From Coleofasciculus sp. FACHB-T130 (lineage in GTDB: Bacteria; Cyanobacteriota; Cyanobacteriia; Cyanobacteriales; FACHB-T130), in assembly GCF_014695375.1 (NCBI RefSeq), contig NZ_JACJOG010000005.1, forward strand, positions 62,001 to 126,000: 64,000 nt of DNA. Direction: 5' to 3'. The notes beneath the pieces are model-generated. The model worked only from the letters and a program-made list of their open reading frames with translations. It did no database searches and was not told the DNA's origin. Shown here in pieces: positions 3,002 through 64,000 of this stretch; the first letter of the stretch is position 1, and each line of letters begins with the position of its first letter. A program made the translations under genes and the position numbers.

Positions 3002-3366
3002 GGAACGACTGAGTGCTGAACGGCTAATTTTTGGGTACGCGATCGCGCTTGTGCGTGCTGCCAATCTCTCACAAGCTACGCACGCAAGCAAAATCTATTC
3101 TCCACTAAGAGATAAGCGGTTGGATGAAAATCTGCCCGCTTTTTTTCTGTAGCAAGGTTTAGCGATTCGCGTCCGGCTTGTTCCCTAAGTGGGTGTTGTT
3201 CAAATGAATCTATCGACTGCTAGATTTTTTTTAGTTGTTTATAGTATTTCTAGGTCATCTTCATCTGCTCAAAGAGATTGAGCCTTCGTTGGGACGGAAA
3301 CTCAGTCGCCCCCTATTCCCAGCGTTGCCAATTGCACTAGTCAATCGCTCGAAAGAAAAAACAGGC
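3002..3366. other. Intergenic region, peroxidase to CHASE3 kinase
   Basis: It holds a HIP1 octamer near 3039, the weak terminator candidate at 3115-3147 and the promoter region of the kinase operon. An open frame continues upstream to TTG at 3235, but its extra N-terminus lacks any family match, so I treat it as leader. Confidence 0.45.
3115..3147 (+). terminator. Possible weak terminator after peroxidase gene
   Basis: AGCGG pairs with CCGCT across a loop of about 16 bases, followed directly by a run of seven T. The stem is short, hence the low confidence. Confidence 0.35.
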
Positions 3367-4824: not shown

Positions 4825-5263
4825 CCGCTATACCTTCCGATCCGTGGAAATTTTGCTGATTGAAGACTCTCCCAGCGATGCGAATTTAACCATCCGAGAA
4901 TTTAAAAAAGCTAAGATTGCTAACAACCTGCACTGGGTTGAATATGGCGAGGCGGGAATGGAATTTCTGCGACAGGAAGGTGAATATGCCAATGCTCCAC
5001 GTCCAGACCTGATTTTACTCGATCTCAATTTACCAGGGATGGATGGGCGAGAAGTCCTCATGGAAGTCAAATCAGACCCCGATCTTAAACGTATCCCAGT
5101 TGTCGTTCTCACCACCTCAGCCGATGAAGAGGATGTACTTAAGTCTTATAACCTCAGTGCCAACTGCTACGTAACGAAGCCGGTTGATATGCAGCAATTT
5201 ATTCGGATTGTGCAATTGATCAATGATTTCTGGCTGGCAGCAGTAAGACTCCCACTAGAGTAA
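4817..5263 (+). CDS. Single-domain response regulator, Rcp1-like
   Basis: A 148-residue receiver domain without an output domain. The acidic pair is E-D at about 16-17, the phospho-acceptor is D69 in [10 protein letters not shown], the threonine is in VLTTS and the lysine is in YVTKP. The insert after helix 2 and the sequence P-G-M-D-G-R-E resemble Rcp1, the phytochrome partner receiver. It overlaps the upstream CHASE3 kinase and is most likely its phosphorylation target. Downstream, ATG of the next kinase follows after eight bases, so this may be a three-gene phosphorelay operon. Confidence 0.9.
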
Positions 5264-5271
5264 CCCCAGTT

Positions 5272-6819
5272 ATGTACAAAACGCCGATTCAAGTCCTCCT
5301 AGTGGAAGATAGCCCCAGCGATGCCAACTTGCTACGCCAACTGTTCTCGCGCTCAAATCAGGAGGGATGGCAATTAGTACACGTTGAGCGGCTGGGCGAC
5401 GCAATTGAGGCTTGTAGCGCTGATTCCTGGGATGTTGCTTTATTGGATCTTTCTCTTCCTGACTCGGATGGATTGGACACAGTAGCACAATTCCGGATAG
5501 CTGCACCAGATATCCCCATTGTGGTGCTGACCGGGTTTGATGATGAGGAACTTGCCCTACAAGCGGTGGCAACAGGGGCACAGGATTATCTCGTCAAAAA
5601 TCAAATTACAATGCAATTGCTAGTGCGGACGATCCGCTACGCCATTGAACGCGGACAAATTCTCAAGCAGCTGCACGAAAGCGAACGACGCTTCCGAGGG
5701 ATTTTTGAGCAGACATTTCAATTAATGGGGTTGTTGACACCAGAAGGAAAGATCCTGGAAGTTAACCAAACAGTTCTTAACTTCAGCGGTCTTCAATTAG
5801 AAGATTATGTTGGTCACTTGATGTGGCAGACAAAATGTTGGAATTATTGCCAGGAAAGCCAGGATTGGTTGAAAAATGCGATCGCCTACGCCGCGAACGG
5901 TCATTTTGTCCGCCATGAGATCCAGGTACAGGGCGAATTGAATGTGATGCTGTGGATTGATTTTTCCTTAAAGCCCTTGACGGACGAAACGGGGAAAGTG
6001 GTGTTGCTGATTGTGGAAGGCAGAGATATTAGCGATCGCAAACTCGCAATGACAGAAATCCTCAAAGCCCTGGAACAGGAACGAGAACTCAACCAACTCA
6101 AATCAAACTTCGTTTCCATCGTTTCCCATGAGTTCCGCACTCCCATGACGACAATTCGGATGTCTGCGGAGTTACTTCGAGCCTACAATCAGAGCTTAAC
6201 CGAACAGAAGAGAAATGAATACTTCGAGCGGATTGAAGGTGCCATCGGCAATATGCTCCACCTATTAGATGAGGTATTGATCTTGGGTCAAACTCAGGCA
6301 GGTGGACTTCAGTTTAAACCCGCACGACTCGATTTAGAAAAATTTTGCTGGGATCTCACAGCAACTTTACAAGCTTGTGCTACTAGACAGCACAACATTA
6401 TCTTTACCTGTCAAGGGAAACGCCCCCAAGTTGAAATGGATGAAGTCTTGCTGCGGCATATCTTCACTAATTTACTTTCCAACGCGATTAAGTATTCGCC
6501 CCAAGGTGGCAATATCTACTTTGATTTAGTTTTCCAAAACGGAGAAGCTACTTTTCGCTTAAAAGATGAAGGAATTGGTATTCCTTTAAAAGATCAACAA
6601 CGCCTGTTTGAAACCTTCCATCGCTGTAGCAATGTGGGACCAATTCAAGGAACCGGATTAGGTCTTTCCATTGCCAAAATGTGTGTAGATTTACATCGAG
6701 GAGAGATTCAAGTAGAAAGTGAAGTCGGTATTGGAACAACATTTATCGTCACGTTGCCATTCAATCAGCCGTCGGGACGGGTTCCTCCACAGGAACACCA
6801 TTTACATCACCAATCTTAG
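5272..6819 (+). CDS. Receiver-PAS-histidine kinase hybrid
   Basis: Soluble protein of 515 residues. It has an N-terminal receiver domain (1-125, phospho-acceptor D59 in LLDLSLPDSDG), a PAS/PAC domain (about 133-258), a HisKA domain with H286 in IVSHEFRTPMTTI and an HATPase domain (N-L-L-S-N-A-I-K; GTGLGLSIAKMCV). There is no membrane segment, so input likely comes by phosphotransfer to the receiver and by the PAS ligand. It is third in the + strand signalling operon. The receiver N-terminus is close to that of the preceding Rcp1-like protein (both contain EDSPSDAN), suggesting duplication. Ligand and output are unknown. Confidence 0.9.
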   Translation: MYKTPIQVLLVEDSPSDANLLRQLFSRSNQEGWQLVHVERLGDAIEACSADSWDVALLDLSLPDSDGLDTVAQFRIAAPDIPIVVLTGFDDEELALQAVATGAQDYLVKNQITMQLLVRTIRYAIERGQILKQLHESERRFRGIFEQTFQLMGLLTPEGKILEVNQTVLNFSGLQLEDYVGHLMWQTKCWNYCQESQDWLKNAIAYAANGHFVRHEIQVQGELNVMLWIDFSLKPLTDETGKVVLLIVEGRDISDRKLAMTEILKALEQERELNQLKSNFVSIVSHEFRTPMTTIRMSAELLRAYNQSLTEQKRNEYFERIEGAIGNMLHLLDEVLILGQTQAGGLQFKPARLDLEKFCWDLTATLQACATRQHNIIFTCQGKRPQVEMDEVLLRHIFTNLLSNAIKYSPQGGNIYFDLVFQNGEATFRLKDEGIGIPLKDQQRLFETFHRCSNVGPIQGTGLGLSIAKMCVDLHRGEIQVESEVGIGTTFIVTLPFNQPSGRVPPQEHHLHHQS

Positions 6820-6926
6820 GGAATTTGAAAAAATTTTGCTTGACATTTCGAGCCTCCACCCGAAGATAAATTGGAGACTAAAAAAGTTGCGCGTAGCGTC
6901 TCTTCCGCTTTCGGCTTCGTTTAAGC

Positions 6927-8225
6927 CTATGTGGTCTTAACAAGATGTACTGGAATTTCAATCGTAAACTCTGCACCCTGTCCGGGGAATGAATGACACG
7001 TCAGTTGACCTTTATGCTTTTCTACTATAATCTCATAAGTCGTCAATAACCCTAACCCGCTGCCTTGACCTATAGGCTTTGTCGTAAAAAATGGGTCGAA
7101 TAAACGCGATCGCATTTCTTCAGCAATGCCAATTCCATTGTCTTTAATTCGGATAATTATCGTTTCCCAAGCACTAAACTCTGTACTAATCCAAATTGTT
7201 GGGCTGGAAGATTCAGAAAACTCTTGCCCAATCCTCAATTCTAGAGCATCAATAGCATTATTTAAAATATTAAGAAAGGCCTGATTTAGCTGGCTAGCAT
7301 AACAATTAACTAAAGGTAAATCTTCATATTTTTTGATCACCTGAATCTCCGGGCGTTTCCCTTCTCCTCTAAGTCGATGCTGCAACAATAATAAAGTGCT
7401 ATTCAATCCTTCATGGATGTCTACAGCTTTAATATCTGATTCATTAAGGCGGGAGAAAATGCGTAAAGCCAGGAGCATTGTGCAGATTCGCTCTACACCC
7501 GTTTGCATTGAGCCTACAAGGTTTTGAATATCTGAATTCAGAAAATCTAGATCGATTTCTTGAATTGCTTTCTGAATGGAAAGAGTAGGCTTTGGGTACT
7601 CTTGTTGATAGATACGAACCAGATTTAGCAAGTCTTGAATATATTTGCGTGCTGGATCGAGATTGCCAGAAATAAAGCCAATAGAATTATTGATTTCGTG
7701 AGCCATTCCTGCGGCTAATTGACCCAACCCAAGCATTTTTTCTTTTTGAACCAGTTGTGCTTGAGCCTTCTTGAGATCGCCTAAGGCTTGTTGAAGTTGT
7801 GAGTTCTGATTTTTCAACTGAGTTTGAAGGCTTTGAATTGTTAGTTGATTTTGAATTCTCGCCAAAACCTCCTCAATTTGAAAAGGCTTAGTAATATAGT
7901 CTACGCCCCCAACTTGAAAAGCTTTCAGTTTATCTAAAACATCATCCAAAGCACTTAAAAAAATCACAGGTACAGAGGAAGTTTCAGTATCTTCCTTTAA
8001 CCTTTCGCAAACTTCATAACCATTCATGCCCGACATATTAATATCTAACAAGATTAGATCCGGCTGAAGTGTCTTAACTGCGGTTAAAGCCATTTGACCA
8101 TTAATCGATTTACGAACGTTATATCCTTTATCTAACAGCAGGGAAGATAAAAAGCGAATATTGTCTGGTGTATCATCAACTATCAGAATATCGGCTTTGA
8201 AGGTATTTGCTAATTTGGAATCCAT
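6927..8225 (-). CDS. Receiver-histidine kinase hybrid
   Basis: Cytosolic protein of about 432 residues. An N-terminal receiver (D61 in LILLDINMSG) is followed by a coiled coil (about 125-165), a HisKA-like region with H176 in GMAHEINNSIGF and an HATPase (GSGLGLLTTYEIIVEKHKG). The dimerisation/ATPase module, including the VDIHEGLNSTLLLLQ block, is paralogous to the kinases at 53.3 and 57.5 kb. I chose ATG 8225, immediately before the conserved receiver strand; the frame is open to TTG 8285. It is convergent with the preceding operon. The receiver resembles that of the GGDEF-EAL protein upstream, so the two may share a phosphodonor. Confidence 0.87.
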   Translation of the reverse strand: MDSKLANTFKADILIVDDTPDNIRFLSSLLLDKGYNVRKSINGQMALTAVKTLQPDLILLDINMSGMNGYEVCERLKEDTETSSVPVIFLSALDDVLDKLKAFQVGGVDYITKPFQIEEVLARIQNQLTIQSLQTQLKNQNSQLQQALGDLKKAQAQLVQKEKMLGLGQLAAGMAHEINNSIGFISGNLDPARKYIQDLLNLVRIYQQEYPKPTLSIQKAIQEIDLDFLNSDIQNLVGSMQTGVERICTMLLALRIFSRLNESDIKAVDIHEGLNSTLLLLQHRLRGEGKRPEIQVIKKYEDLPLVNCYASQLNQAFLNILNNAIDALELRIGQEFSESSSPTIWISTEFSAWETIIIRIKDNGIGIAEEMRSRLFDPFFTTKPIGQGSGLGLLTTYEIIVEKHKGQLTCHSFPGQGAEFTIEIPVHLVKTT

Positions 8226-8407
8226 TGGGCTTTGAATTAAAAGAGTATCAAAATTGTTTACCTGCTTATTATCGCTGCATCCCAAGTAGTTAATATTCGT
8301 AAAAAATTAATTGTTATTTTAGCTTTATTAACTATCTTTTTTAGTTTGGCTTTAACTGAATAAACCTAGCTTTATTAACATAAACTACACTTTCACCCTA
8401 AATATTC

Positions 8408-10219
8408 TTACTGTGTATCCGATACAATTAAATTTGTGGCTTTTTTTCCTTCTACAGGTTTAGAAAACAGATATCCCTGTCCAAACTCACAATTTAAGTT
8501 TCTTAGCTGAGATAGCTGTTCGCCCGTCTCAATTCCTTCAGCAATTACACTCATATTTAGAGTTTGAGCAATCTTCATAATCGCCGGAATCAGTCCCAAA
8601 CTATCTGTTTTTTCATCTAAATAACTAATAAAAGAACGGTCGATTTTGAGAGTATCAACCGGGAAATTATATAAATAACTCAGAGAAGAATACCCGGTAC
8701 CAAAGTCATCAATACATAACTGAATCTTACGTTCTCGAAGTTGCTGCATAATCGCTTTTACAGATTGAGTATTATTCATCAGAACACTTTCTGTGATTTC
8801 TAACTTCAAGCTTTGAGGATTCAGTTGGGTTTCCGCGAGGATTTGGTCAATTTGCTCAATTAAATCTGGCTGAGCAAACTGCCGCGCTGAAAGATTGACA
8901 CTCATAAATAGGGGATGATCGATCAGTTTTTCCTGATACCATTGCTGAAGCTGATAGCAAGCTTCCCGCAAAACCCAATTGCCAAGTTGGTTAATCAAAC
9001 CTGTTTCTTCTGCTACAGGAATAAACAATCCAGGCGATACCATTCCTCGTTGAGAATGATCCCAGCGAACTAATGCTTCAAACCCAACAATTTTGCTGGT
9101 ATCAAGGGCAATAATTGGCTGATAGTGGACAATGAATTCTTGTCGTTCGATGGCTCTACGCAAGTCATTTTCAAGCTGTAAAACTTGAATCACAGCATCG
9201 TGCATCTTTGGGTCAAAAATTTGGTATTGACCTTTTCCTAAGGTTTTGGCACGATACATTGCGATGTCTGCATCTCGCAATATATGTTCTGCTCGCTCAT
9301 AATTAGGATTGCTCATAGCAATTCCAACACTAGCGTTGATGAAAATTTCCTGTTTATTTAGTTGAAACGGAGAAGCAAAAGATTGAAGTATTTGATCTGC
9401 GATTAGGAGTACACTGCTGATATTTCCAACGTCTGTCAAGATAATCGCAAATTCATCACCGCCCAACCGGGCCAAAGTATGATGTTGACTGAGTAATTTT
9501 TCTAGGCGGCGAGCTAAATTAATTAACAGTTCGTTACCGGCAAGATGACCGAGAGAATCATTGACTACTTTAAAGCGATCGCAATCAAGAAACAACACGG
9601 CAAACGCCTCTCCTGAATGTTCCTTGGTGCGTTTGAGAGCTTGTTCTAGACGCTCCATGAATAAAGCTCGATTGGGCAATCCTGTAAGATCGTCATAAAG
9701 TGCCATTTTTATGAGTTGTTCTTGAAGGAGCATCCGCTCGTTGATTTCCCGCCTCAGTTCTTGATTTGCTACTTCTAGCTGAAAAGTCCGCTCTTTAACT
9801 CGTTCTTCAAGTTGAGCATTTAGTTGTTGGTTTTGGATTTTTGCGGCTCTTAACTCTAGTTGATTCTGAACACGAGCTAAAACTTCTTCAAATTGAAAAG
9901 GTTTGGCAACATAATCTGCTCCGCCAACCGAAAAAGCTTTTACTTTATCAAAAGCCTCGCTGAGAGCGCTTAAGAAAATTACAGGAATTGCAGCAGTTTT
10001 TGGATCGGATTTCAGTTTTTCACAAACTTCATAACCATCCATACCAGGCATCATAATATCAAGCAAAATTAGATCGGGGATAACAGTTTGTATCGCTGTC
10101 AGTGCCATTTGCCCGCTTAATGCCTTGCGAATGGTATAGCCTTGCTTCATTAGCAGACCAGACAGAAAACGCAAGTTTTCAGGGGTGTCATCAACGATGA
10201 GAATATCTTCTTTTGCCAT
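8408..10219 (-). CDS. Receiver-GGDEF-EAL c-di-GMP turnover protein
   Basis: A 603-residue response regulator with bifunctional cyclic-di-GMP output. The receiver is at 1-120 (D54 in LLDIMMPGMDG), a coiled coil at 125-170, the GGDEF domain at 175-335 with intact GGDEF (253-257) and the EAL domain at 345-600 with intact EALVRW (381-386) and DDFGTGYSSLSYL. Both active sites look complete, so synthesis and breakdown are both possible. There is no inhibitory RxxD five residues before GGDEF that I can see. It starts with ATG. It sits 182 bases upstream of the receiver-kinase and shares its strand. A role in motility or attachment is inference from the family. Confidence 0.92.
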   Translation of the reverse strand: MAKEDILIVDDTPENLRFLSGLLMKQGYTIRKALSGQMALTAIQTVIPDLILLDIMMPGMDGYEVCEKLKSDPKTAAIPVIFLSALSEAFDKVKAFSVGGADYVAKPFQFEEVLARVQNQLELRAAKIQNQQLNAQLEERVKERTFQLEVANQELRREINERMLLQEQLIKMALYDDLTGLPNRALFMERLEQALKRTKEHSGEAFAVLFLDCDRFKVVNDSLGHLAGNELLINLARRLEKLLSQHHTLARLGGDEFAIILTDVGNISSVLLIADQILQSFASPFQLNKQEIFINASVGIAMSNPNYERAEHILRDADIAMYRAKTLGKGQYQIFDPKMHDAVIQVLQLENDLRRAIERQEFIVHYQPIIALDTSKIVGFEALVRWDHSQRGMVSPGLFIPVAEETGLINQLGNWVLREACYQLQQWYQEKLIDHPLFMSVNLSARQFAQPDLIEQIDQILAETQLNPQSLKLEITESVLMNNTQSVKAIMQQLRERKIQLCIDDFGTGYSSLSYLYNFPVDTLKIDRSFISYLDEKTDSLGLIPAIMKIAQTLNMSVIAEGIETGEQLSQLRNLNCEFGQGYLFSKPVEGKKATNLIVSDTQ

Positions 10220-10491
10220 AACGAGGGAGAAATTATTTATTTCAATTCTTTTATCATCGATTTTGGAAAATTCGTTAGTTTAGAATATTATTTAAAAGTC
10301 ATTTTTCTTCTATTTCCTGTTTGCAGTTAATGATAAAGGTTTAAAAAGTTTTGAACTAATTGATTGCAGCGTTAAATATTATTTAACCACTTATCTTAGA
10401 CATTCTGCAATCATCTTCCACAGGTGTGAGAGTAGAGGAAGGCAATGGGAAAAAACCTATTTGCCATCCTGCAACAAAATTTTTCAATATC

Positions 10492-13400
10492 CTACTCCTG
10501 CTGGGAATGTGATAGAAGAGGCGAAAAATTGAGGGAGGTTTGCTGTGAGTTTTTACCAGGAAGCTGTGTTTCAGTTGATTGAATTAATTCCATAATTTGC
10601 TCAAACTGAAAATTTTCGACCAAATTGGTCAAAGCATTTATAACAAACGAATTTTCTGGGGGAATTTCCTGAAGGAGCTGAAGGAGCAAGAAATCGCTGC
10701 CTTGGGAAGCTGCATAGTGTAGCTGTTGTATCCATTCAGAGGGCATAGTGGAAATCTGAAGGGGGATGTCAGAATCGGAAGTCTCTGGTAAATTTTCCTT
10801 CCTGCTTTCGGTGGGTAATGCTTCCTCCTCATAGAGATATTGCACCCCTAGATATTTATTCATTTTAAAGAGTAGTTCCTCTTCTCGAAAAGGTTTACGC
10901 ACGAAGTCATCGCATCCCGCTGACAAGATAATTTGTCTGTCTTCTTCAAAAACGCTGGCAGTTAGGGCAATAATTATGGTTGCCTCACCTTTTAAGGAAG
11001 CTCTAATTTTTTTGGTAGCTTCATAGCCGTTCATCACAGGCATCCGCATATCCATCCAGATTAGATGGGGTTCCCAACTCTCCCAAATTGCCACAGCTTC
11101 TTGACCATTTTCAGCTTCTTGCACCTCAAAGCCCAAGTAAGTAAGAAGCTTAACTAGGAGGAGACGATTTGTGGGCTTATCCTCCACAACTAGAACACGA
11201 TAGATGGGTTGGTCAGGAGCTAAACCAATAACTTTTTTATAGATAGATTGGGATGTTTCAATCTCCATCTGCTCAACCAAACCTGCCTGAATGTCAAAGG
11301 TAAATTTGGCTCCCTGACCTGGATGACTACTGACTGCGATCGCTCCTCCCCCCATCAGTTGGACAAACTTTTGACTGATCGGTAAGCCCAAACCCGTGCC
11401 TTGACAGGACTTCAGCCCAACTGAGGTTTGTCCAAAAGCTTCAAATAACCGATCGAATTCATTCGGGTCAATACCGGGGCCAGTATCTTCCACTTCAAAG
11501 AGCAAGCGGATAAAAGGCACAGGTGAGGAGTCTGCTTGTTCCCCAACACTCCTGCTTTCCGCCTCTCCTTCCTCCCCTGTAACACGCAGGGTTACGCTCC
11601 CTTTGTCAGTAAATTTGATGGCATTACCGAGAAGGTTAATCAAGACCTGACGCAGCTTACTTTCGTCGGTTCTGACGTACTGGGGGACAGCAGCCGTGCA
11701 TTCAAAGTTAAGCAAGAGTCCCTTGCTTGTGGCTTTGAGTTGTAGCATCTGTTCGAGACTATTGAGCAGACAATACAGGTCAAAGTCATTTTCATGTAGC
11801 GTGACTCGCCCTGCCTCGATTTTAGCCATCTCTAAAACATCGTTAATCAATGCCAGCAGATGATCGCCACTGCGACTGATGATCTCCAGGTATTTCTGAT
11901 GTTCGGCAGATAGGGAGGTATCAAGGCTCATCAATTGGGTAAAACCAAGGATGGCATTGAGGGGTGTCCTTAGTTCGTGGCTCATATTGGCAAGAAATTC
12001 GCTTTTAGCACTGTTGGCAGCATCAGCGGCTTCCTTGGCGATCATCAATTCAATTGACTGCTGTTGAGTTCGCGCTAGCAATTCTGCCTGTTGGATCGCA
12101 ACGCCTAACTGTGCCCCAATTTGAACAACCATCTTGATTTCTGCCTCTTGCCATTGGCGAGAACCGGAATTTTGGTAAGTTGCTAGCAAGCCCCACAGTT
12201 GATTGCTATGGAAAATCGGAACAATGATATAAGCTCGTGCTTGAAAGCGCTCCAACAGTTCTAGGTAACAAGCGTCAAATCCAGCTTGGTAGATGTCTGG
12301 GACACAACGATAACTGGTTCCTTGGCGATAAGTCCCGCCTTGATTTGCTTGCAAATAAGTATCTTGGATTGGCTCCTCTGCACTTCCCAAAGTTTTGCCA
12401 GCACAACCCACCTGGTTAACGGCAACCTTGGGCAGCTGAGATTGATGAATTTGTTCGGGAACTAGCAAATTCCAGCCTTCTGCTACCGACTCCGATACAA
12501 AATCCCCACTCCAGTCGGGATGGAAACGATAGAGACCAACGCGATCGCAATTAATCGCATGGCGTAATTCTTCAGTCGTAGCGCTAAAAATTTTGTCAAT
12601 TTCTAAGGTTTGGCGCATTCGCTGAATCACGAAAGCGATCGCTTTTTCCCGTTCTGCACTCTCCCGTAATGCGGCTTGTGCTGCTTGACGTGCCTGAGTC
12701 ACTGCAATGAATTCGTTGACTAATTTAAGCCAATTAATTTCTTCTTGACTCCAGATTTTGGAAGAGCTGATGGCATCCAAACCCATAAAACCGACAACCG
12801 TACCAGCGTAAAGCGTCGGAACGGCAAGCCGGGACTGGATACACTGAAGTTTCGTCAAGGTTGGTTCGGCGGTGACAGGTGGGCGTTCGGCAGGAAATTG
12901 AACCGTTTTGCCACTCAAAAGTTGGTTGTGAATCCAGTGATGATTTTCAACAGGTAAACCTTGAAACCGCTCGATCGCTGGCTGAATGCCAAAGCCGCAC
13001 CACTCGTGGGTCATATTCCAGCCGTTTTGGCGATCGGAGTAATCAAACAGGTAAGTGCGATCGCACCCCAAAAACTCGCCAACGGCTTGCAGCGTGAAAG
13101 CGATCGCAGTATCTAAGTTTTCGTCAATCAGCATCCCAGAAATCCGGCTCAAGCAACTGTCCATCGCTGCTCGTTTTGTCAGCAATTCCTCCGCTAAGTT
13201 CCGCTCCAGCTCGGCTCCCGCTCTGGCAACAAAAATTTTCATAATCATTTCTTTGCCAGGATCGTGAGCCATTGGCTGCACATCCAACACCGCCAAATTG
13301 CCAATTGTATTGCCAGCCGAGTCTCTTAACGGAATTCCCCAGTAGCTTTGTGCGCCTAACTTCTCTAACGCTTGGAAGTCAGGAAAAAGTTCTTGTACCT

Positions 13401-53310: not shown

Positions 53311-56124
53311 ATGATGAAAGCGATTCTGCCTAAAAATGAAGCTGATCTAGTGTATGTACCCACTGAGGGCAGCTCAACGAAGCACTTGCATCGGAAATTC
53401 TTCTACAAGGTTGCGGGAGGTCTGGGAGTGGCAACTGTCCTACTGGTTAGCATTGGTGGGATTTCGTACCGGAGTATCACGCAACTTGTGCAAGCGAATA
53501 ACTCAGTAGACGATACCTTTACCTTCATTAATCAGCTTGATGATGTATTTTCCGGAATCAAGGACGCAGAAACTGGGCAGCGTGGCTACATAATCACTGG
53601 AGACGAGGCTTATTTACAACCCTACTACACAGCAACAGCTAAGGTTAATCAACAGGTTGAGTTTCTCAAGGGATTAGCGGGAAATAACCTCAATCAACAG
53701 CAGAAGCTCGGCACTCTGGAATCTCTGAGTGCAAGTAAATTTTCTGAATTGAAACGGTCAATCGAATTACGAAAAAACAAGGGATTTGAAGCCGCGCAGC
53801 AATTAGTTAAGACGAATGAAGGCAAGGTAGTGATGGATAACATCCGCCTGCTTGTCAATGATTTGGAAAATGACCAAAAGCATTTGTTGAAGGAGCGGTA
53901 CCAACAAGCGAAAGACCAGGCTCGTGACTCTCTAATTACATTTTTAAGCGGTGTCTTTCTAAATTTTATTATTGCTTTATGGGTTTACAGGCTTATTTAT
54001 GGGGAAATGAGCGATCGCTATCGGACAGAAAATGAACTTCAGAAAGAACGCGACTATACATCATTTATTGTTCAGACTACACCAGCACTGGTCGTTGGGC
54101 TAAAGCTTGATGGGGTGATTACATTTGTCAATCCTGCTGTTGAGCAGGTGACAGGCTACTGCGCAGAAGAATTAATTGGACGCAACTGGTGGGAAATCTT
54201 TTATGCTGACGATGAATACAGAGGTATCGAGCAGTTATTATCCACCCTGAAGCACGGAGGCGTCCGCGACTATGAAACAGTTTTGACCATCCAGAATCGA
54301 GAAAAACGGATTATCAATTGGAATGTTCTGAAGCGGTTTGACGAGCGAGGCAAATTGGTTGATGTGATTCAATTTGGCAATGATATCACCGATCGCAAAG
54401 CAGCTGAGGACATTCGCAAAGGCGCAGAACTGCTGCAACTGATTTTGGATAATATTCCCCAATATATCTTCTGGAAGGATAGAAACTCTGTCTATTTAGG
54501 CTGTAATAAGGTTTCATGTCAAATCACTGGGATTAGCAATCCAGAAAACATTATTGGCAAGACGGATTATGACTTGTGGTCGCAAGAAATAGCAGAAAAA
54601 TACCGCAAAGACGACCGTCGCGTGATGGCAACGGATACCCCGGAACTGCATATTATCGAACGCTTGATTCAGCCAAACAATGAAGAACTCTGGGTAGACA
54701 TCAACAAAGTTCCCATTCACGATGCGATGGGCAAAGTAATCGGTATCCTCAGCACCATAGAAGACGTTACCGAACGCAAGCAGGCGGAGAAAGCCTTGCG
54801 GCAGAATATGGAGATGCTTGACTTAGCCACGGACGCAATTATCATTCGGGATTTGAATGACAAGATTAGCTATTGGAATCAGGGCGCTGAACGACTATAT
54901 GGTTGGACAAAAGCAGAAACACTCGGTCAGTACATCCACACCTTCTTGGAAACTGTCTTTCCCCAACCAAAAGAGGAAGTTCTAGAGATATGCCTGCGTG
55001 AAGGGAATTGGGAAGGCGAATTGATTCACACCAAGCGTGATGGCACTCAAATCACGGTAGCCAGCCGATGGACGCTGCAATTAGATGAATTTGGTCAGGT
55101 GTCCGCCAGACTAGAAATTAACAATGATATTAGCGATCGCAAGCAAGCTCTTGATGCCTTGCGCCAGTCGGAAGCGAAGGAACGAGAAAAAGCCCAGCAG
55201 TTGCAACAAACTTTGCACGAACTCAAAAAGACCCAATCTCAACTGATTCAGACTGAAAAAATGTCCAGTTTGGGTCAACTGGTTGCTGGAGTGGCGCATG
55301 AAATTAATAATCCCGTTAACTTTATCTACGGCAATCTCATCCACACCGAGCAATATACACAAGACTTGCTCAATCTAATGAAAGTATACCAACGGTACTA
55401 TCCCAATCCCGCGCCAGAGATTCAAGAAGAAGTTGAGGCTTTAGACATTGAGTTTGTTCTTGAAGACCTACCCAAAATGGTCGCTTCAATGAAGTTAGGC
55501 GCTGACCGCATCCGCCAGATTGTCCTCTCTTTGCGAACCTTCTCCCGCCTGGATGAAGCAGAAATGAAGCCGGTTGATATTCACGAGGGTATTGATAGCA
55601 CCCTCTTAATCTTGCAGAATCGGCTGAAAGCTAAACCAGATTCTCCAGGAATTATAGTTATTAAGAAATATGGCACGCTGCCAGAAGTAGAGTGTTATGC
55701 AGGACAACTGAATCAAGTATTTATGAATATCTTGAGCAATGCCATAGATGCTTTAGAAGGGTTGCCCTCTAATCGTCAAAAGCTCATGGATTCTGGAGAA
55801 ACAAGTTCTAATAGCGAGTTCCCCATTCCTAATTCTCAATTACCGACCATCCAGATTTGCACTGAAGTTTTGAACGCGAACAAAATTGTTGTGCGAATTG
55901 CAGATAACGGCCCCGGCATCCGTGAGAATGTCAAGGCGCGACTTTTTGACCCATTTTTCACGACCAAGCCAATCGGTCAGGGCACCGGGCTAGGATTAGC
56001 AATCAGCTATCAGATTGTTACAGAAAAACATGGAGGGTCGATCAGTTGTGTATCAGCAGTGGGAGAGGGAACCGAGTTCGTTGTAGAGATTCCAGTCACA
56101 CAAAGTCCAAGGCAAGGGAATTGA
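53311..56124 (+). CDS. CHASE3-PAS3 sensor histidine kinase
   Basis: A 937-residue membrane kinase. TM1 at 33-53, CHASE3 domain (DAETGQRGYIITGDEAYLQPYY), TM2 at about 209-230. Three PAS/PAC domains follow (about 245-370, 372-490, 495-620). The kinase module has H663 in GVAHEINNPVNF and an ATPase domain ending GTGLGLAISYQIVTEKHGG. It shares the VDIHEGIDSTLLILQNRLKA block with the kinase at 57.5 kb. A loop after NAIDALEG is extended by heptamer-coded residues (NSEFPIPNSQLP). The output receiver is not adjacent. Ligands unknown. Confidence 0.9.
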   Translation: MMKAILPKNEADLVYVPTEGSSTKHLHRKFFYKVAGGLGVATVLLVSIGGISYRSITQLVQANNSVDDTFTFINQLDDVFSGIKDAETGQRGYIITGDEAYLQPYYTATAKVNQQVEFLKGLAGNNLNQQQKLGTLESLSASKFSELKRSIELRKNKGFEAAQQLVKTNEGKVVMDNIRLLVNDLENDQKHLLKERYQQAKDQARDSLITFLSGVFLNFIIALWVYRLIYGEMSDRYRTENELQKERDYTSFIVQTTPALVVGLKLDGVITFVNPAVEQVTGYCAEELIGRNWWEIFYADDEYRGIEQLLSTLKHGGVRDYETVLTIQNREKRIINWNVLKRFDERGKLVDVIQFGNDITDRKAAEDIRKGAELLQLILDNIPQYIFWKDRNSVYLGCNKVSCQITGISNPENIIGKTDYDLWSQEIAEKYRKDDRRVMATDTPELHIIERLIQPNNEELWVDINKVPIHDAMGKVIGILSTIEDVTERKQAEKALRQNMEMLDLATDAIIIRDLNDKISYWNQGAERLYGWTKAETLGQYIHTFLETVFPQPKEEVLEICLREGNWEGELIHTKRDGTQITVASRWTLQLDEFGQVSARLEINNDISDRKQALDALRQSEAKEREKAQQLQQTLHELKKTQSQLIQTEKMSSLGQLVAGVAHEINNPVNFIYGNLIHTEQYTQDLLNLMKVYQRYYPNPAPEIQEEVEALDIEFVLEDLPKMVASMKLGADRIRQIVLSLRTFSRLDEAEMKPVDIHEGIDSTLLILQNRLKAKPDSPGIIVIKKYGTLPEVECYAGQLNQVFMNILSNAIDALEGLPSNRQKLMDSGETSSNSEFPIPNSQLPTIQICTEVLNANKIVVRIADNGPGIRENVKARLFDPFFTTKPIGQGTGLGLAISYQIVTEKHGGSISCVSAVGEGTEFVVEIPVTQSPRQGN
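55814..55844 (+). repeat. Heptamers in kinase ATPase loop
   Basis: GAGTTCC, CCATTCC, TAATTCT, CAATTAC in tandem inside the CHASE3/PAS kinase gene, encoding a Pro/Asn/Ser-rich loop. Confidence 0.65.
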
Positions 56125-56575: not shown

Positions 56576-57541
56576 ATGCAAAAACATCTATCTTGGATAC
56601 GGAATCGCTCTTACAAACGAGCAGTGACTTGCTTCATCCTAGCCTTGTCCGTTACGTACAGTTGTGTAGCCTGTACTCAGCCAAGTGAAAATACCACAAC
56701 GCCAATAAGCCCCAGCTCTCAGCCACTGAGCGATAGTTATAGGAATACAGGAGACGAACTAAAAACCATAAATATGGCGGTGATTCCGTGGCAGGTTTCA
56801 GCAGAACAGGAAAAGCAACTTCAGCCACTAGCGGACTATCTAAGCAAGACATTAGGAAAACCTGTTAAATTTCAGATTACAAAAGACTACGACACATCGA
56901 TAGATTTACTGGTGAAAGGAAAAGTAGAAATGGCTTTTCTAGGTCCCCTGTCGTATATAAAGGCACATCTTCGAGATCCCCAACTTAAGCCAATTGTTGC
57001 GCCAATTGAAAGAACAACCGGACGACCTTGGTATACAAGCACCATCGTTGTTAATAATGCCAGCGGTATCAAAACTATTAAAGATTTAAAAGGTAAGAGA
57101 TTTGCCTTCGTCAGTAAATCCTCAGCTTCGGGTTACTTAGTGCCTTTAGCTCACTTTCAAGACATTGGTATTAACCCCGAACGCGACTTTGCTACAGTCA
57201 AGTATGCGGGTAGTCACGACAAGGTGAAAGCGGATTTACTAGCAGGAAAGGTGGATGCGATCGCGGATGATAAACGCTCGTATCTTCAGCAACAGAAAGA
57301 GGGAAATATTGACCCTTTAAAATACAAAATTATTTGGGAATCTGACCCAATTCCTCTTTCGCCCATTGTCGTCTCTAGTAAGCTTCCATCCCAACTGGTA
57401 ATCGACCTCAAGAAAGCATTTGTCAACTCTCCAGAGGGACTGCTAGATCCCAGTGGTTCTGAGTCGGCTGGATATACTCTGGTAGAAGATCGAGACTATA
57501 CACCGATTAGAAAACTCCAAGAGCGCCTTAAGTTGAAATAA
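56576..57541 (+). CDS. PhnD-type periplasmic binding protein
   Basis: A 321-residue phosphate/phosphonate-type substrate-binding protein. The N-terminus is an export signal (VTCFILALSVTYSCVAC) with two cysteines, neither in a perfect lipobox. The mature part has NMAVIPWQVSAEQEKQLQPL, FLGPLSYI and the KDLKGKRFAFVSKSSASGYLVP signature of the PhnD family. No permease or ATPase gene lies nearby. A kinase gene starts 11 bases after its stop, so it probably senses rather than imports a ligand. Ligand unknown: phosphite, phosphonate or another oxyanion. Confidence 0.85.
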   Translation: MQKHLSWIRNRSYKRAVTCFILALSVTYSCVACTQPSENTTTPISPSSQPLSDSYRNTGDELKTINMAVIPWQVSAEQEKQLQPLADYLSKTLGKPVKFQITKDYDTSIDLLVKGKVEMAFLGPLSYIKAHLRDPQLKPIVAPIERTTGRPWYTSTIVVNNASGIKTIKDLKGKRFAFVSKSSASGYLVPLAHFQDIGINPERDFATVKYAGSHDKVKADLLAGKVDAIADDKRSYLQQQKEGNIDPLKYKIIWESDPIPLSPIVVSSKLPSQLVIDLKKAFVNSPEGLLDPSGSESAGYTLVEDRDYTPIRKLQERLKLK

Positions 57542-57552
57542 AGCCGAATGCA

Positions 57553-59355
57553 ATGAAAATATTAACTAAGTTTATTGGATCTTCTATTGCCGTACTAGGG
57601 CTAATTTTATGCCTTACAGTTGGCAGTGAAGACTGGCTCAAAGAAGTAGAAAAATCCACCGAAACGAGCCGAGAAAGAGCCGCTCAAGCTGACAGTATAG
57701 TCTTGAATCTAAAAGTTTCTTTAAGAGACCAGATCGCAGCACTGAGGAACTATCTCATCCTCAACCGCGACCCCTCAGATATGGCAAAATATCACAAGGC
57801 GATGTCTGACTTTATCCTTAGCTTGGATGACTTAGAAAGTCTGATGCCAGAAAATTCAGGCCTGACAGTTGTTCGCCGTCGCCATAGTTTTCTCGTCCGC
57901 TTAGCAACAGAGCTTCGCGATACACCTTCTACTCTTAAACAGACTCAGCAGGATTTCAGAACCATCAATTCTTTCAAAGAAGATATTGATTTCTCTTTAA
58001 ACTCTCTAGTTAGTAATATTCAGCAACAGTATGCTCTAGCAAGGCAAGAATCAAATAAATTTAAAGAGACCACCCATATTATTAGATATGCCACTACAGG
58101 TTTAATTCTTATAATTCTCACTGGGCAGATGATATTAATATTAATCCCAGTCATTTTATCTATAAAAAAACTCCAGTTAGGAGCGACAAAAATTGGTGCA
58201 GGTAATTTAGATTATCGCCTAAATATTCAAACAGGAGATGAAATTGAAAAATTGTCTTGCGAGTTCAACCAAATGGCAAAAAAACTTGCAGAATCTTACT
58301 ATTTTTTAGAGCAAAAGATAATTGAACGGACTGCCGAATTGATTGAGTTAAACCAAAACTTAGAAATTGAAATTTCCGAACGCAAGCAGGCAGAAACAGA
58401 ACTTCAGCAAGTTTTGCAAAACTTGCAACAAACCCAAGCTCAGCTCATTCAAACCGAAAAGATGTCTAGCCTTGGTCAAATGGTTGCTGGGGTAGCTCAT
58501 GAAATTAATAACCCCGTTAATTTTATCCACGGCAACCTTGTGTATGTGGGTGAATATACACAAGATTTGTTGAGACTGGTGCAGCTTTACCAAAAACACT
58601 ATCCTAACCCAATTACCGAGATCGAGGAGCAAGCAGAAACTGTCGAACTTGACTTTATTATTGCAGATTTAGACAAAATCCTATCTTCGATGAAAATTGG
58701 CACTGAACGTATCCGTCAAATTGTTCTTTCTTTGCGGAATTTCTCTCGCCTTGACGAGGCAGACATGAAGCCAGTTGATATTCACGAGGGATTAGATAGC
58801 ACTCTTTTAATCTTGCAAAATCGATTAAAAGCTAAGCCGGAGCATCCCGCTATTGAGGTGGTTAAAGAATACGGAAATTTGCCTTTAGTTGAGTGTTATG
58901 CGGGTCAGATGAATCAGGTATTTATGAATATTATTAGCAATGCTATTGATGCCCTAGAAGCCTTTGATGGCTTATCGTTCATTGCTCGTAACAATGAACA
59001 ATCGACAAGTAATCTTGAACCATCCCCAACGATTCGGATTAGCACTCAAGTTTTGCACCCCGACCGTGTTGCTGTGCGAATTGCTGATAATGGACTAGGC
59101 ATGACGGAAGAGGTAAGAAAACGGCTATTCGATCCGTTTTTTACGACCAAGCCAGTTGGGCAAGGAACGGGGCTGGGGCTATCAATTAGCTATCAAATTG
59201 TAGTAGAGAAGCATTCAGGAATGCTTCGCTGCATTTCCGAAGCGGGACAGGGAGCAGAGTTTTGGATTGAAATCCCGATGCGTCAAAGCCAGAGAGGCTC
59301 TACTGCAACTGTTCGAGAGAGGTCAAATCGGTCAAAACCTATGGCAATTTCTTAA
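57553..59355 (+). CDS. HAMP sensor histidine kinase paired with PhnD-type protein
   Basis: A 600-residue membrane kinase. TM1 at about 7-27, helical periplasmic domain (28-177; RDQIAALRNYLILNRDPSD is CHASE3-like), TM2 at about 178-203, HAMP (203-256), a coiled coil, H316 in GVAHEINNPVNF and HATPase (GTGLGLSISYQIVVEKHSG). The periplasmic domain is the likely docking face for the binding protein encoded just upstream. The ATPase module is a close paralogue of that at 53.3 kb. The cognate receiver is not in the window unless supplied elsewhere. Confidence 0.9.
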   Translation: MKILTKFIGSSIAVLGLILCLTVGSEDWLKEVEKSTETSRERAAQADSIVLNLKVSLRDQIAALRNYLILNRDPSDMAKYHKAMSDFILSLDDLESLMPENSGLTVVRRRHSFLVRLATELRDTPSTLKQTQQDFRTINSFKEDIDFSLNSLVSNIQQQYALARQESNKFKETTHIIRYATTGLILIILTGQMILILIPVILSIKKLQLGATKIGAGNLDYRLNIQTGDEIEKLSCEFNQMAKKLAESYYFLEQKIIERTAELIELNQNLEIEISERKQAETELQQVLQNLQQTQAQLIQTEKMSSLGQMVAGVAHEINNPVNFIHGNLVYVGEYTQDLLRLVQLYQKHYPNPITEIEEQAETVELDFIIADLDKILSSMKIGTERIRQIVLSLRNFSRLDEADMKPVDIHEGLDSTLLILQNRLKAKPEHPAIEVVKEYGNLPLVECYAGQMNQVFMNIISNAIDALEAFDGLSFIARNNEQSTSNLEPSPTIRISTQVLHPDRVAVRIADNGLGMTEEVRKRLFDPFFTTKPVGQGTGLGLSISYQIVVEKHSGMLRCISEAGQGAEFWIEIPMRQSQRGSTATVRERSNRSKPMAIS

Positions 59356-59796: not shown

Positions 59797-62700
59797 ATGA
59801 AAATCAGCCACAAATTGATGACAGGTTACTTAGCCGTTGCTCTACTTGTTGAAGTGGTTGGATATGTCGGAATTAAAGGAACGAATAATCTTGAAAAAAA
59901 GTACAACGAAGTTATTAATGGAACAATTCCTTTTCACTATGAGTTAGAGCGGTTGCAATATGTTTCGGATACAGTAGTTTTGTATACTAAAGAATTAGAA
60001 TTCCAAGAGATAGAAAGAAATCCATCTGCAAAAGATATTGTATTGACGCAAAAATATCAAAAGGTGGAGACTAGCCAGGAAAATTATCGCAAGGCTCTGA
60101 ATGATTATAAAGAATTAGCGAACTATTTTTTCCCATCTGAACAAGGATTGTCAGAAGAAATCCAAACTTCAGGTGAGAGACTTTTAAAATTATCCAATGA
60201 GGTAATCGGCTTAAAAAAGCAGGGAAGGGTAACTCCAGAGTTACTGGCAAAAGAAAACGAACTGGAAAAAACCAGCCAACAATTTATAGGAACTATTAAC
60301 CAAAAAATTCAGGCTCAATCGCAAGAGTTGGAAACGGAAAGAAAGAAGATTCATGAAACTCTGCTCTTGACCGACAGAATGATATTTGGCGTCGGTTTAT
60401 CTACCCTCTTAATCGCTATATTTCTTGGTCTTTTTATCTCGCGGTCTATATTGAGTCGGCTAAACAAACTCAAAGCGGCTGCGGTAGAGATAGGCAAGGG
60501 CAAGCTAGAGACAAAAATAGACGCTTCCACCAAAGATGAGCTGAGCGCCTTAGCTGATGCTTTCAATAAAATGGCTGAGGATTTGCGGCAGAAAACAGCG
60601 GATGTAATCAATGTTTGTGAAAGCATGGTGGAATCTCTGATCGTGGTAACGCCCGATACCATGATTCAGTCAGTTAATAAAGCAACCTGCGAACTTTTGG
60701 GGTATCACAAAGAGGAGTTAATTGGGCAACCGATAGGAGTTATTTTTGCCGATGAAAAATTTCCTTTTACAGCGTCGGAGTTGGATGATTTAACTCAAAA
60801 AAGGGTTGTCCGAGATGCAGAAAAAATTTACCTGTCCAAAGACGGGAGAAGAATCTCGGTGCTGTTTTCCTGTGCAGCGATCGCAAGCGTATCGGATAGA
60901 ATTCAGGGAATCGTTTGTGTAGCCCAAGATATCACGGAACGGCAGCGAGCGGAGTTGGCGATCAAACAAGCGAAAGAAGAACTAGAAATTAGAGTTGAGG
61001 AGCGCACAACTGAGTTAAAGCGTGCAATTGGGCAATTTCAGGGCGAGATTGTCGAGCGTCAGCGGGTAGAGGAAGCACTGCGCGAAAGCGAGGAGCGGTT
61101 TCGGACGCTGATACAGGAGCTTCACGTCGGCGTTTTACTGCAAGGAGCCAACGCAGAAATCCTGCTGAGCAATCAAGCAGCTATCGACCTTCTCGGTATC
61201 ACTGACAGCCAACTGCTGGGGAAAACTTCCTTCGATCTGGATTGGAATGTCATTCATGAAGATGGTACGCCGTTCCCCGGAGAAACCCATCCGGTGTCGC
61301 AAGCGATCGCAACTCGTCAAGCCGTGCGGAATGTCGTGATGGGCGTTTATCGTCCCAGTGTGGGCGATCGCATCTGGCTATTAGTCAATGCCGAACCTCA
61401 GTTGGCAGCGGATGGTCGCCTTGAACAAGTAATCTGCACCTTCAGCGATATCACCAAGCGCAAGCAAGCAGAGGAAAGACTCGCGCAGCGCGAACGCTAC
61501 TTATCAGCATTGGTTGAAGTTGAGCGCCGGTTGCTGACTTTTGATGGCAGCGTCAATTGCTACACGGAAATATTGGTACAACTCGGACAAGCAGCAGGCG
61601 CAAGTCGCGTTTACGTATTCGAGAACCATCGTTCGCAAATAGGCAACTTGCTGATGAGTCAGCGTGCCGAGTGGTGTGCCGAGGGCGTTCAGCCAGAAAT
61701 CGACAATCCGGCGCTGCAAAACCTTTCTTATGACGACTTCTTCCCCCGCTGGGCATATTTGCTAGAAAAAGGTGACATTGTTGCCGGAATTGTCGCTGAA
61801 TTACCCGAATCAGAGCGTTTTATCTTAGAACCTCAGGGAATTCTTTCCATCCTAATTTTGCCCATCATGGTTAAGGGCGAATTCTTCGGGTTTATCGGCT
61901 TTGACAACTGCATAGAAGCGCGTGCTTGGGAACCTTTGGAAATCAACCTGCTGCGTGCAGCGGCAGCCGCCATCTCTCTTACTCAAGAACGCAAGCAAGC
62001 AGAGGAAGCAGTAACACGCCTTGCCGGGATTTTGGAAGCAACGAGTGATTTCGTAGGCAGTGCGGACAATCGAGGACGCGCATTTTACATTAACCAGGCA
62101 GGTCGTCGCTTGGTCGGAATTCCTCTCGAAGAGGATATCTCAAACCTCAGCGTTGCCAGTTGCCACCCGAAATGGGCGGGTCAAATCATCTTGGAGGAGG
62201 GAATTCCTAGTGCGATTCGCGATGGCGTCTGGTGTGGCGAAACTGCACTTTTGACCCGCGACAAACGGGAGATTCCAGTTTTGCAGCTGATTATTGCCCA
62301 CAAGAAGCTGGATGGAAGCGTTGACTTTCTTTCTACCATCTCCCGCGATATTAGCGATCGCAAGCAAGCAGAAAACGCTCTCAAACAGCTCAACGCAGAC
62401 TTAGAAAAACGAGTCCTTGAGCGTACAGCAGAATTAAACAATGCGATCGCGCAATTGGAGGGCGAGATTGCCGAGCGCAAGTGGGCAGAAGAGGAACTGG
62501 AAAAATCCCTGTCCCTGCTCAAGGCGACGCTCGAATCAACAGCTGATGGGATTCTCGTAGTTGACAAAACCGGAAAAATAGCCAGTTTCAATCAAAAATT
62601 TGTCCAAATGTGGCGCATCCCCGACTCTATTGTCGCGGCAGGGAATAGCAACCAAGCCTTAGCATTTGTCCTAGAGCAGCTAAAAAACCCGGAAACCTTT

Positions 62701-64000
62701 ATCACCAAAATTCAGGAACTCTATAGCGAACCAGACGCAGAAAGCTACGACCTCCTTGAATTTAAAGATAGAAGAATCTTCGAGCGCTATTCCCAGCCTC
62801 AACGGATTGGGGGAAAAGTCGTCGGTAGAGTGTGGAGCTTCCGCGATGTCACCGAGCGCCAACAGGCAGAAGAAACCATCCGCTATCAAGCGTTGCACGA
62901 CCTGCTGACTGGCTTGCCGAACCGGATGCTATTCAATGAGCGGCTGTCTGTGTCCTTGGCGTATGCACGTCAAAGCCAAAGTACGCTTGCCGTAATGTTT
63001 TTGGATTTGGATCGTTTTAAGACGATTAACGATACATTGGGGCACGCTTTTGGCGATCGCTTGTTGCAAAGCGTGACTGAACGAATGATCGGCTGTCTGG
63101 GGGAGGATGACACCGTTGCTCGTTGGGGAGGGGATGAATTTACCCTACTTATCCCCCAAATTCGTTGTAAAGAGGACGCTGCTAAGATTGCCCAGAAAAT
63201 CTTAGAAGATTTAAAGCCAGAATTTTATTTAGAAGGGCACTCCCTGCATATCAGTAGCAGTATTGGGATTGCACTTTATCCCAGTGATGGCGCAGATGCT
63301 GAAACACTTTTGAGAAACGCCGATGCTGCCTTATATCGTGCCAAAGAAAAAGGTCGGAATAACTATCAATTTTATAATCCAGCAATGAATTCTCAGAATT
63401 CTGAGTTATTGGTACTCGAAAACGATTTGCACCATGCTCTAGAACGGGGAGAATTTGTCGTTTACTACCAACCTCAAGTCAATACAACGACTGGAGAAAT
63501 CACCCACGTTGAAGCCCTGTTGCGCTGGCAGCATCCAAAGTTTGGGCTAGTTTCTCCAGGAATATTTATTCCCCTAGCGGAAGAAACCGGACTCATCGTA
63601 CCAATTGGGGAATGGGTGTTAAAGACTGCCTGCGCTCAAAATAAAGCTTGGCACGATGCAGGATTTGCAGACTTACAAGTGGCGGTTAACCTTTCTGCCC
63701 GACAGTTTCAGGAACCTGATTTAGTCAAAATGGTGACGCGAGTTCTGGAAGAAACTGGACTCGAAGCGCCATTTTTGGAGTTAGAAATTACTGAAACAAT
63801 CACGATGCAAAATGTAGAATTTACCCGAAAAACTTTGAGTGAGTTGCATCGGATAGGACTCTACATTTCTCTAGATGATTTTGGGACGGGATATTCTTCT
63901 CTGACTTATTTGAAAAAGTTTCCCTTCCATACCTTAAAAATTGACAAATCCTTTGTTCGAGACTTGACAAGCGACCCCAATGATGCAGCCATCATTACAG
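59797..64000 (+). CDS. HAMP-PAS-GAF-GGDEF-EAL protein (3' end outside window)
   Basis: Partial gene, open for 1401 codons to the window end. ATG 59797 follows AGGAA. TM1 at about 9-27, a helical extracytoplasmic domain, TM2 at about 194-216, HAMP (215-268), PAS (about 280-395), PAS (about 433-555, containing EDGTPFPGE), GAF (about 570-725), PAS (about 740-860), PAS (about 890-1020), GGDEF (about 1030-1190; intact motif 1111-1115) and EAL (from about 1205; EALLRW at 1239; DDFGTGYSS present). Both active sites look complete as far as seen. It likely converts periplasmic and cytosolic signals into c-di-GMP changes. It follows the binding-protein/kinase pair on the same strand. Confidence 0.92.
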   Translation, partial: MKISHKLMTGYLAVALLVEVVGYVGIKGTNNLEKKYNEVINGTIPFHYELERLQYVSDTVVLYTKELEFQEIERNPSAKDIVLTQKYQKVETSQENYRKALNDYKELANYFFPSEQGLSEEIQTSGERLLKLSNEVIGLKKQGRVTPELLAKENELEKTSQQFIGTINQKIQAQSQELETERKKIHETLLLTDRMIFGVGLSTLLIAIFLGLFISRSILSRLNKLKAAAVEIGKGKLETKIDASTKDELSALADAFNKMAEDLRQKTADVINVCESMVESLIVVTPDTMIQSVNKATCELLGYHKEELIGQPIGVIFADEKFPFTASELDDLTQKRVVRDAEKIYLSKDGRRISVLFSCAAIASVSDRIQGIVCVAQDITERQRAELAIKQAKEELEIRVEERTTELKRAIGQFQGEIVERQRVEEALRESEERFRTLIQELHVGVLLQGANAEILLSNQAAIDLLGITDSQLLGKTSFDLDWNVIHEDGTPFPGETHPVSQAIATRQAVRNVVMGVYRPSVGDRIWLLVNAEPQLAADGRLEQVICTFSDITKRKQAEERLAQRERYLSALVEVERRLLTFDGSVNCYTEILVQLGQAAGASRVYVFENHRSQIGNLLMSQRAEWCAEGVQPEIDNPALQNLSYDDFFPRWAYLLEKGDIVAGIVAELPESERFILEPQGILSILILPIMVKGEFFGFIGFDNCIEARAWEPLEINLLRAAAAAISLTQERKQAEEAVTRLAGILEATSDFVGSADNRGRAFYINQAGRRLVGIPLEEDISNLSVASCHPKWAGQIILEEGIPSAIRDGVWCGETALLTRDKREIPVLQLIIAHKKLDGSVDFLSTISRDISDRKQAENALKQLNADLEKRVLERTAELNNAIAQLEGEIAERKWAEEELEKSLSLLKATLESTADGILVVDKTGKIASFNQKFVQMWRIPDSIVAAGNSNQALAFVLEQLKNPETFITKIQELYSEPDAESYDLLEFKDRRIFERYSQPQRIGGKVVGRVWSFRDVTERQQAEETIRYQALHDLLTGLPNRMLFNERLSVSLAYARQSQSTLAVMFLDLDRFKTINDTLGHAFGDRLLQSVTERMIGCLGEDDTVARWGGDEFTLLIPQIRCKEDAAKIAQKILEDLKPEFYLEGHSLHISSSIGIALYPSDGADAETLLRNADAALYRAKEKGRNNYQFYNPAMNSQNSELLVLENDLHHALERGEFVVYYQPQVNTTTGEITHVEALLRWQHPKFGLVSPGIFIPLAEETGLIVPIGEWVLKTACAQNKAWHDAGFADLQVAVNLSARQFQEPDLVKMVTRVLEETGLEAPFLELEITETITMQNVEFTRKTLSELHRIGLYISLDDFGTGYSSLTYLKKFPFHTLKIDKSFVRDLTSDPNDAAIIT

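Follow-up and report, generated by a model that had tools for sequence, protein, structure and literature searches.

A PhnD-type solute-binding protein that probably serves a four-helix sensor kinase in cyanobacteria

The genome of Coleofasciculus sp. FACHB-T130 (6.2 Mb, G000) carries on contig 5 a gene for a PhnD-type solute-binding protein (SBP) directly followed by the gene of a HAMP-containing sensor kinase. The two genes are inherited jointly across dozens of cyanobacteria, and for this reason the SBP most likely serves the kinase, as its "nose" for a small phosphate-like molecule, and is not part of a transporter. It is probable that the two proteins constitute one sensor, in which the oxyanion-loaded SBP docks on a periplasmic four-helix bundle and switches the kinase.

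The locus

The window, that is the whole stretch of 64,000 nucleotides that was analysed, contains the two reading frames on the plus strand, separated by 11 nt, exactly where they had first been placed. The features are the following.

56576..57541, plus strand: PhnD/PtxB-type SBP, predicted lipoprotein, 321 aa (PF12974, PtxB homology, AlphaFold2 model)
56576..56674, plus strand: SBP signal peptide and predicted lipidated Cys33, weak lipobox CVA-C (conservation of Cys33)
57553..59355, plus strand: sensor histidine kinase, 600 aa, intact (reading frame and Pfam domains)
57553..58158, plus strand: TM1, periplasmic four-helix bundle and TM2, which together make up the conserved sensor domain accompanying the SBP (AlphaFold2 model, Foldseek)
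58159..58290, plus strand: HAMP domain, kinase residues 203-246 (PF00672, 38 bits)
58498..58500, plus strand: predicted phospho-acceptor His316 in the H-box VAHEINNP (read from the sequence, inside the HisKA match)
58906..59283, plus strand: HATPase_c, residues 452-577, with N, G1 (DNGLGM) and G2 (GTGLGLS) boxes (PF02518, 79 bits)
53311-56124: upstream neighbour, a CHASE3-PAS-PAS-PAS kinase, 451 nt from the SBP gene (window reading frame and Pfam)
59797-64000, plus strand, running on along the contig: 4HB_MCP-HAMP-PAS-GAF-PAS-GGDEF-EAL protein, 1485 aa, 441 nt downstream of the kinase

The reading frames and the PF12974, HAMP and HATPase_c matches confirmed the original prediction of a PhnD-type protein 11 nt ahead of a HAMP kinase, the HisKA match of which is partial (residues 307-329), and the periplasmic domain, predicted to be helical, was all-helical in the AlphaFold2 model (pLDDT 86). 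The reported lack of transporter genes nearby also held: no ABC permease or ATPase reading frame adjoins the pair in the window, and the sole PhnE-type permease of the genome lies on another contig (C46), in a PhnC-PhnE cluster with its own PhnD-type SBP. No response regulator adjoins the pair at the window locus, the flanks being another kinase and the GGDEF-EAL protein.

The catalytic domain of the upstream CHASE3-PAS kinase is closely related to that of the paired kinase (421 bits), and several relatives also have other kinases preceding the SBP gene. The N-terminal part of the GGDEF-EAL protein is weakly similar to the sensor and HAMP domains of the paired kinase (23 bits); this neighbour was not seen beside the pair in relatives. 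A scan for promoters and terminators gave no excess over shuffled sequences. In a crude scan for Pho boxes (CTTAACCT repeats, 3-nt spacing), which was likewise negative for the PhnD gene of the same genome, 3/56 upstream regions of SBP genes matched at p<0.05; this is the level of chance and therefore no evidence for Pho control of the SBP genes.

Conservation of the pair

In a sample of 149 related genomes the SBP was found in 25, the sensor domain in 29 and both in 24. The gene next to the SBP bears the sensor domain at 23/25 of these loci, with a gap of -4 to 155 nt, and the two reading frames often overlap by 4 nt. The phylum sample of 386 cyanobacterial genomes, in which family SBPs scored at least 325 bits and other PhnD-like proteins at most 207 bits, contained 27 family SBPs, all from the order of the window's own genome, 25 of them with the sensor immediately downstream; the hypergeometric probability of this co-occurrence, uncorrected for phylogeny, was about 5e-37. 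Scanning of 84,980 species genomes with one peptide pattern, which may miss distant or non-cyanobacterial members, gave 42 SBP loci, which all come from records with cyanobacterial titles (Nostoc, Planktothrix, Microcoleus, Oscillatoria, Chlorogloeopsis, Calothrix and others). The sensor followed at 40 of them, one of the remaining loci ending at a contig edge and one being without a sensor. The relatives that carry the SBP gene are cyanobacteria, many of them filamentous, and conservation of the pair, on which the original prediction had been made to depend, was observed in each sample.

Two loci of the 386-genome sample with the sensor alone (G477 and G423:C189) retain a C-terminal SBP remnant immediately upstream, and a shortened SBP precedes the sensor in G078, a genome outside that sample. 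No SBP was found near the sensors of G105, G117 and the second copy of G122, and the sensor may therefore sometimes act without an SBP or use one encoded in trans. In G032 the two family members, SBP and sensor, are located on separate contigs (L054, L148), with no kinase after the SBP; they are either partners that act in trans without linkage or what is left of different ancestral pairs.

The distance matrices of SBP and sensor correlated with r=0.85 over 55 pairs, the maximum in permutations being 0.26, and the three paralogous pairs of Chlorogloeopsis fritschii occupy broadly matching places in the two trees. Matching trees demonstrate co-inheritance, not contact, since linkage and vertical descent also predict them. 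Moreover, in Pseudomonas aeruginosa no interaction was detected in tests of PA0602 and AgtB with AgtS, or of PA4985 with AruS (PMC11113362), so that adjacency and conservation are no proof of contact.

A second PF12974 SBP-kinase pair is present in the same genome (L036, contig C30, minus strand), where the SBP gene (8733-9638) is followed after 68 nt by a HAMP kinase gene (6757-8664). The sensor of this kinase differs from the family sensor, with at most distant similarity, and the pair is kept in eight relatives (L133-L140), some with longer kinases. It represents a sister SBP-kinase family.

Is the binding protein part of a transporter?

The SBP could be an orphan transport component that serves PhnC/PhnE or another ABC permease encoded elsewhere, its adjacency to the kinase reflecting co-regulation. 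The PhnC-PhnE cluster on another contig of the same genome would provide such a partner, and the orphan SBPs PA0602 and PA0222 of P. aeruginosa are a precedent (PMC11113362). However, that cluster already has a PhnD, and a PhnE-type permease (counted at E<1e-40) is missing in 8 of 25 genomes with the pair, each at least 96% complete, which argues against a transporter role; several genomes thus possess the SBP and no dedicated transporter. A canonical PhnE scoring above the family cut-off, where present, adjoins a PF12974 SBP of its own, and G009 has no strong PF12974 protein other than the paired SBP. No SBP-permease-ATPase set adjoined the pair in the roughly 65 loci read, and it is the sensor domain, not a permease, that tracks the SBP. 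An orphan transport role is accordingly unlikely, and the original prediction survives its own proposed counter-evidence, a permease or ATPase partner elsewhere that would account for the SBP.

The PhnE of the window's own genome (L035, contig C46, 11263-13065), beside PhnC and PhnD, has 600 aa and joins two PhnE-like permease halves in tandem, a form that also occurs in G004, G074, G090 and G122.

In the databases such SBPs are labelled as "phosphonate ABC transporter" protein, as in Calothrix NIES-4101. This label is probably wrong for the whole family, and counts of cyanobacterial phosphonate-uptake genes would consequently be inflated.

The sensor domain and its outputs

The AlphaFold2 model of the kinase input (pLDDT 86) consists of helices 3-69, 74-97, 102-123 and 128-215, which form a single four-helix bundle. 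This is the NarX/NarQ-type layout, with a predicted periplasmic four-helix bundle between two transmembrane segments and then a HAMP domain, which was present in 56/56 sensors. The best Foldseek matches of the sensor domain were to NarQ (E 0.005-0.06, probability 1.00), a weak significance because helical bundles resemble each other, and those to Tsr and HK9 were weaker. The sequence profile also matched NarQ (E 1.7e-5), partly through HAMP, and Pfam gave only a weak CHASE3 in 12/56 members. Three conserved stretches, LKD (64-66), RRRH (near 109-112) and QQDFRxINSF (132-141), are candidates for a docking or switch surface.

These features might also mean that the bundle binds a small anion itself, as NarX and NarQ bind nitrate, and that the SBP merely concentrates or sequesters the ligand. 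NarQ being the best structural neighbour, the basic RRRH stretch and the few sensors with no SBP nearby are in keeping with such direct binding. Nevertheless, the SBP is kept beside the sensor in >90% of cases, with remnants at exceptions, and the likeness to NarX/NarQ is that of the bundle in general. Four-helix bundles also act as docking sites for SBPs, that of Tar accepting the maltose-binding protein at its membrane-distal end. Direct binding by the bundle is thus improbable, and docking of the SBP is preferred.

Relatives combine the same input with one of two kinases, either the plain type of the window or a hybrid of HisKA, HATPase and receiver, and a receiver-kinase gene often comes after the hybrid. 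The hybrids sit at several separate places on the sensor tree, as judged by eye, which suggests that the kinase output has seemingly been exchanged more than once. The mobilizable plasmid4 of Calothrix NIES-4101 (L149, AP018277.1) carries an operon of three overlapping genes (4983-9501), which encode the SBP, a hybrid kinase and a receiver-kinase, and no transporter gene adjoins it. The operon is flanked on both sides by a 382-aa reading frame (2008-3156 and 9723-10871) with a shared start sequence, possibly a mobile-element or duplication border. No consistent metabolic neighbour that could name the ligand was seen by eye among the loci of relatives, nor was one found at the window.

The binding protein and its pocket

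The SBP belongs to PF12974 (Phosphonate-bd; score 205 bits, cut-off 27), and its nearest sequence in the PDB is PtxB (5o2j, E 5e-32). The AlphaFold2 model (pLDDT 86.5) is bilobed and PtxB-like, with PtxB 5lq1 as the top Foldseek match (E 2.7e-27). Identity to PtxB is about 28-30%, and the TM score on the target is 0.88. Cys33 is the same in all of 24 members and conserved to at least 95% in a set of 55, the remainder of the signal peptide being variable. This suggests that the SBP is a lipoprotein, the lipobox of the window protein being weak.

The residues that hold the ligand oxygens in Te_PtxB (PMC5700983) were taken as the reference for the pocket. Alignment with 55 relatives showed that the SBP keeps the corresponding Y105, Y153, S183, S185 and H214, hence the oxyanion pocket of the PhnD superfamily (two Tyr, S-T-S and His) save the Thr. 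The site of Te_PtxB T131 is Ala184 in the window protein and Thr in 53/55 relatives, and this alanine was counted against the reading as an oxyanion sensor. Of the pair that caps phosphite in Te_PtxB, Tyr208 is replaced by Ser262 and Asp22 by Trp72, and among the 55 relatives Tyr occurs in one and Asp in five. The amino-group ligands of Escherichia coli PhnD are not matched either (Asp205 to S262, Glu177 to R234), and the site of AioX Cys106, which corresponds to PhnD Gly65, is Gly123, with Gly in 45/55 relatives and Cys in none.

The candidate ligand 2-aminoethylphosphonate was rejected on S262 and R234, and phosphite and arsenite on the lost cap residues and on Gly123, respectively. The retained oxygen-contacting core together with the loss of caps and cysteine points to a tetrahedral oxyanion with a different group at the fourth position as the likely ligand, as far as pocket residues can tell.

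A phosphite-specific sensor could be supposed because the closest solved proteins are the phosphite-binding PtxB. It is quite unlikely in view of the rarity of the cap pair, as Te_PtxB with its tyrosine replaced (Y208A or Y208F) bound phosphite roughly two to three orders of magnitude more weakly (PMC5700983). Sensing of arsenic oxyanions as in AioXSR/ArrXSR, with which the SBP family and the pairing are shared and whose ArrX and AioX also appear as structural neighbours, is very improbable, since the AioX cysteine is replaced by Gly123 in the window protein and absent from all 55 relatives, the SBP profile scores PtxB (170 bits) above ArrX (106) and AioX (61), and neither a response regulator nor a recognised arsenic oxidase or reductase gene stands beside the window pair.

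Proposed mechanism and significance

The SBP would be anchored in a membrane as a lipoprotein facing the periplasm, where its PhnD-type cleft would close on a tetrahedral oxyanion, such as a phosphonate, a phospho-ester or a related compound. The loaded SBP would then dock on the four-helix bundle of the kinase, and the resulting helix shift may be passed through TM1/TM2 and HAMP to alter autophosphorylation at His316. From the window kinase the phosphate would pass to a response regulator whose gene lies at another place in the genome, and in the hybrid forms of relatives to the attached receiver and probably then to the downstream receiver-kinase.

It is tempting to speculate, tentatively and with more doubt than confidence, that the anchored PhnD-type SBP and the four-helix sensor make up a portable cassette, which evolved independently out of a PtxB-like SBP of a transporter, detects an organophosphorus compound or another oxyanion beyond phosphate, arsenic and phosphite, and was repeatedly joined to different kinase outputs, including one on a mobilizable plasmid. 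The pair makes it testable which dissolved oxyanion is perceived by these cyanobacteria through such a sensor and what that controls. Moreover, one input with two output layouts offers a natural series on which the acceptance of a binding protein by four-helix sensors can be studied.

Comparison with known systems

As to kind, the pairing, the trees, the lack of PhnE in several genomes and the remnants lend strong support to the original prediction of a binding-protein-assisted kinase. Its claim to novelty for a phosphonate-class SBP does not stand, because kinases are already known to be paired with the PhnD-family SBPs AioX, ArxX and ArrX (PMC5908839) and TtrS and ThsS contain a PhnD-like sensor domain (PMC5408782); receptor activation by SBPs is considered widespread (PMC9602780). 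What is new is the cyanobacterial family, in which the SBP is PtxB-like and the outputs are exchangeable, and no description of the pair was found in the open-licence literature.

As expected of an SBP-dependent kinase, the genes are linked and conserved jointly with no transporter. The likeness first drawn to LuxPQ and TorT-TorS is sound in that a stand-alone SBP aids a membrane kinase by way of the periplasmic domain of the latter, as is predicted for the cyanobacterial pair. They are not the nearest comparison, as LuxP and TorT belong to SBP families other than PhnD and the sensor domains of LuxQ and TorS differ too. In the tetrathionate and thiosulfate kinases TtrS and ThsS the PhnD-like part is built into the kinase, whereas here it is a separate protein, the input being PhnD-like in both. 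NarQ/NarX and Tsr/Tar share the predicted periplasmic input fold and its HAMP linkage, but NarQ binds its anion directly, without an SBP.

A closely similar arrangement is that of AioX-AioS-AioR, ArxXSR and ArrX-ArrS-ArrR, in which a PhnD-family type II SBP gene adjoins a sensor-kinase gene without a transporter, and most of the pocket core is likewise conserved. In contrast to these, the cyanobacterial pair lacks the Cys106 equivalent and, at the window locus, recognised arsenic enzyme genes; it also has no adjoining response regulator in the window, its SBP is a predicted lipoprotein and its hosts are Cyanobacteria. By the features tested, the family falls outside the AioX group, and its greater proximity to PtxB hints at a recruitment separate from that of AioX and ArrX. 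PtxB, with its relatives HtxB and PhnD, is closest in solved sequence and fold, and its STS-H oxyanion core is mostly retained; unlike the transporter SBPs PtxB and PhnD, the cyanobacterial protein has no PhnC-type ATPase or PhnE-type permease beside it, lacks the phosphite cap and is linked to a kinase.
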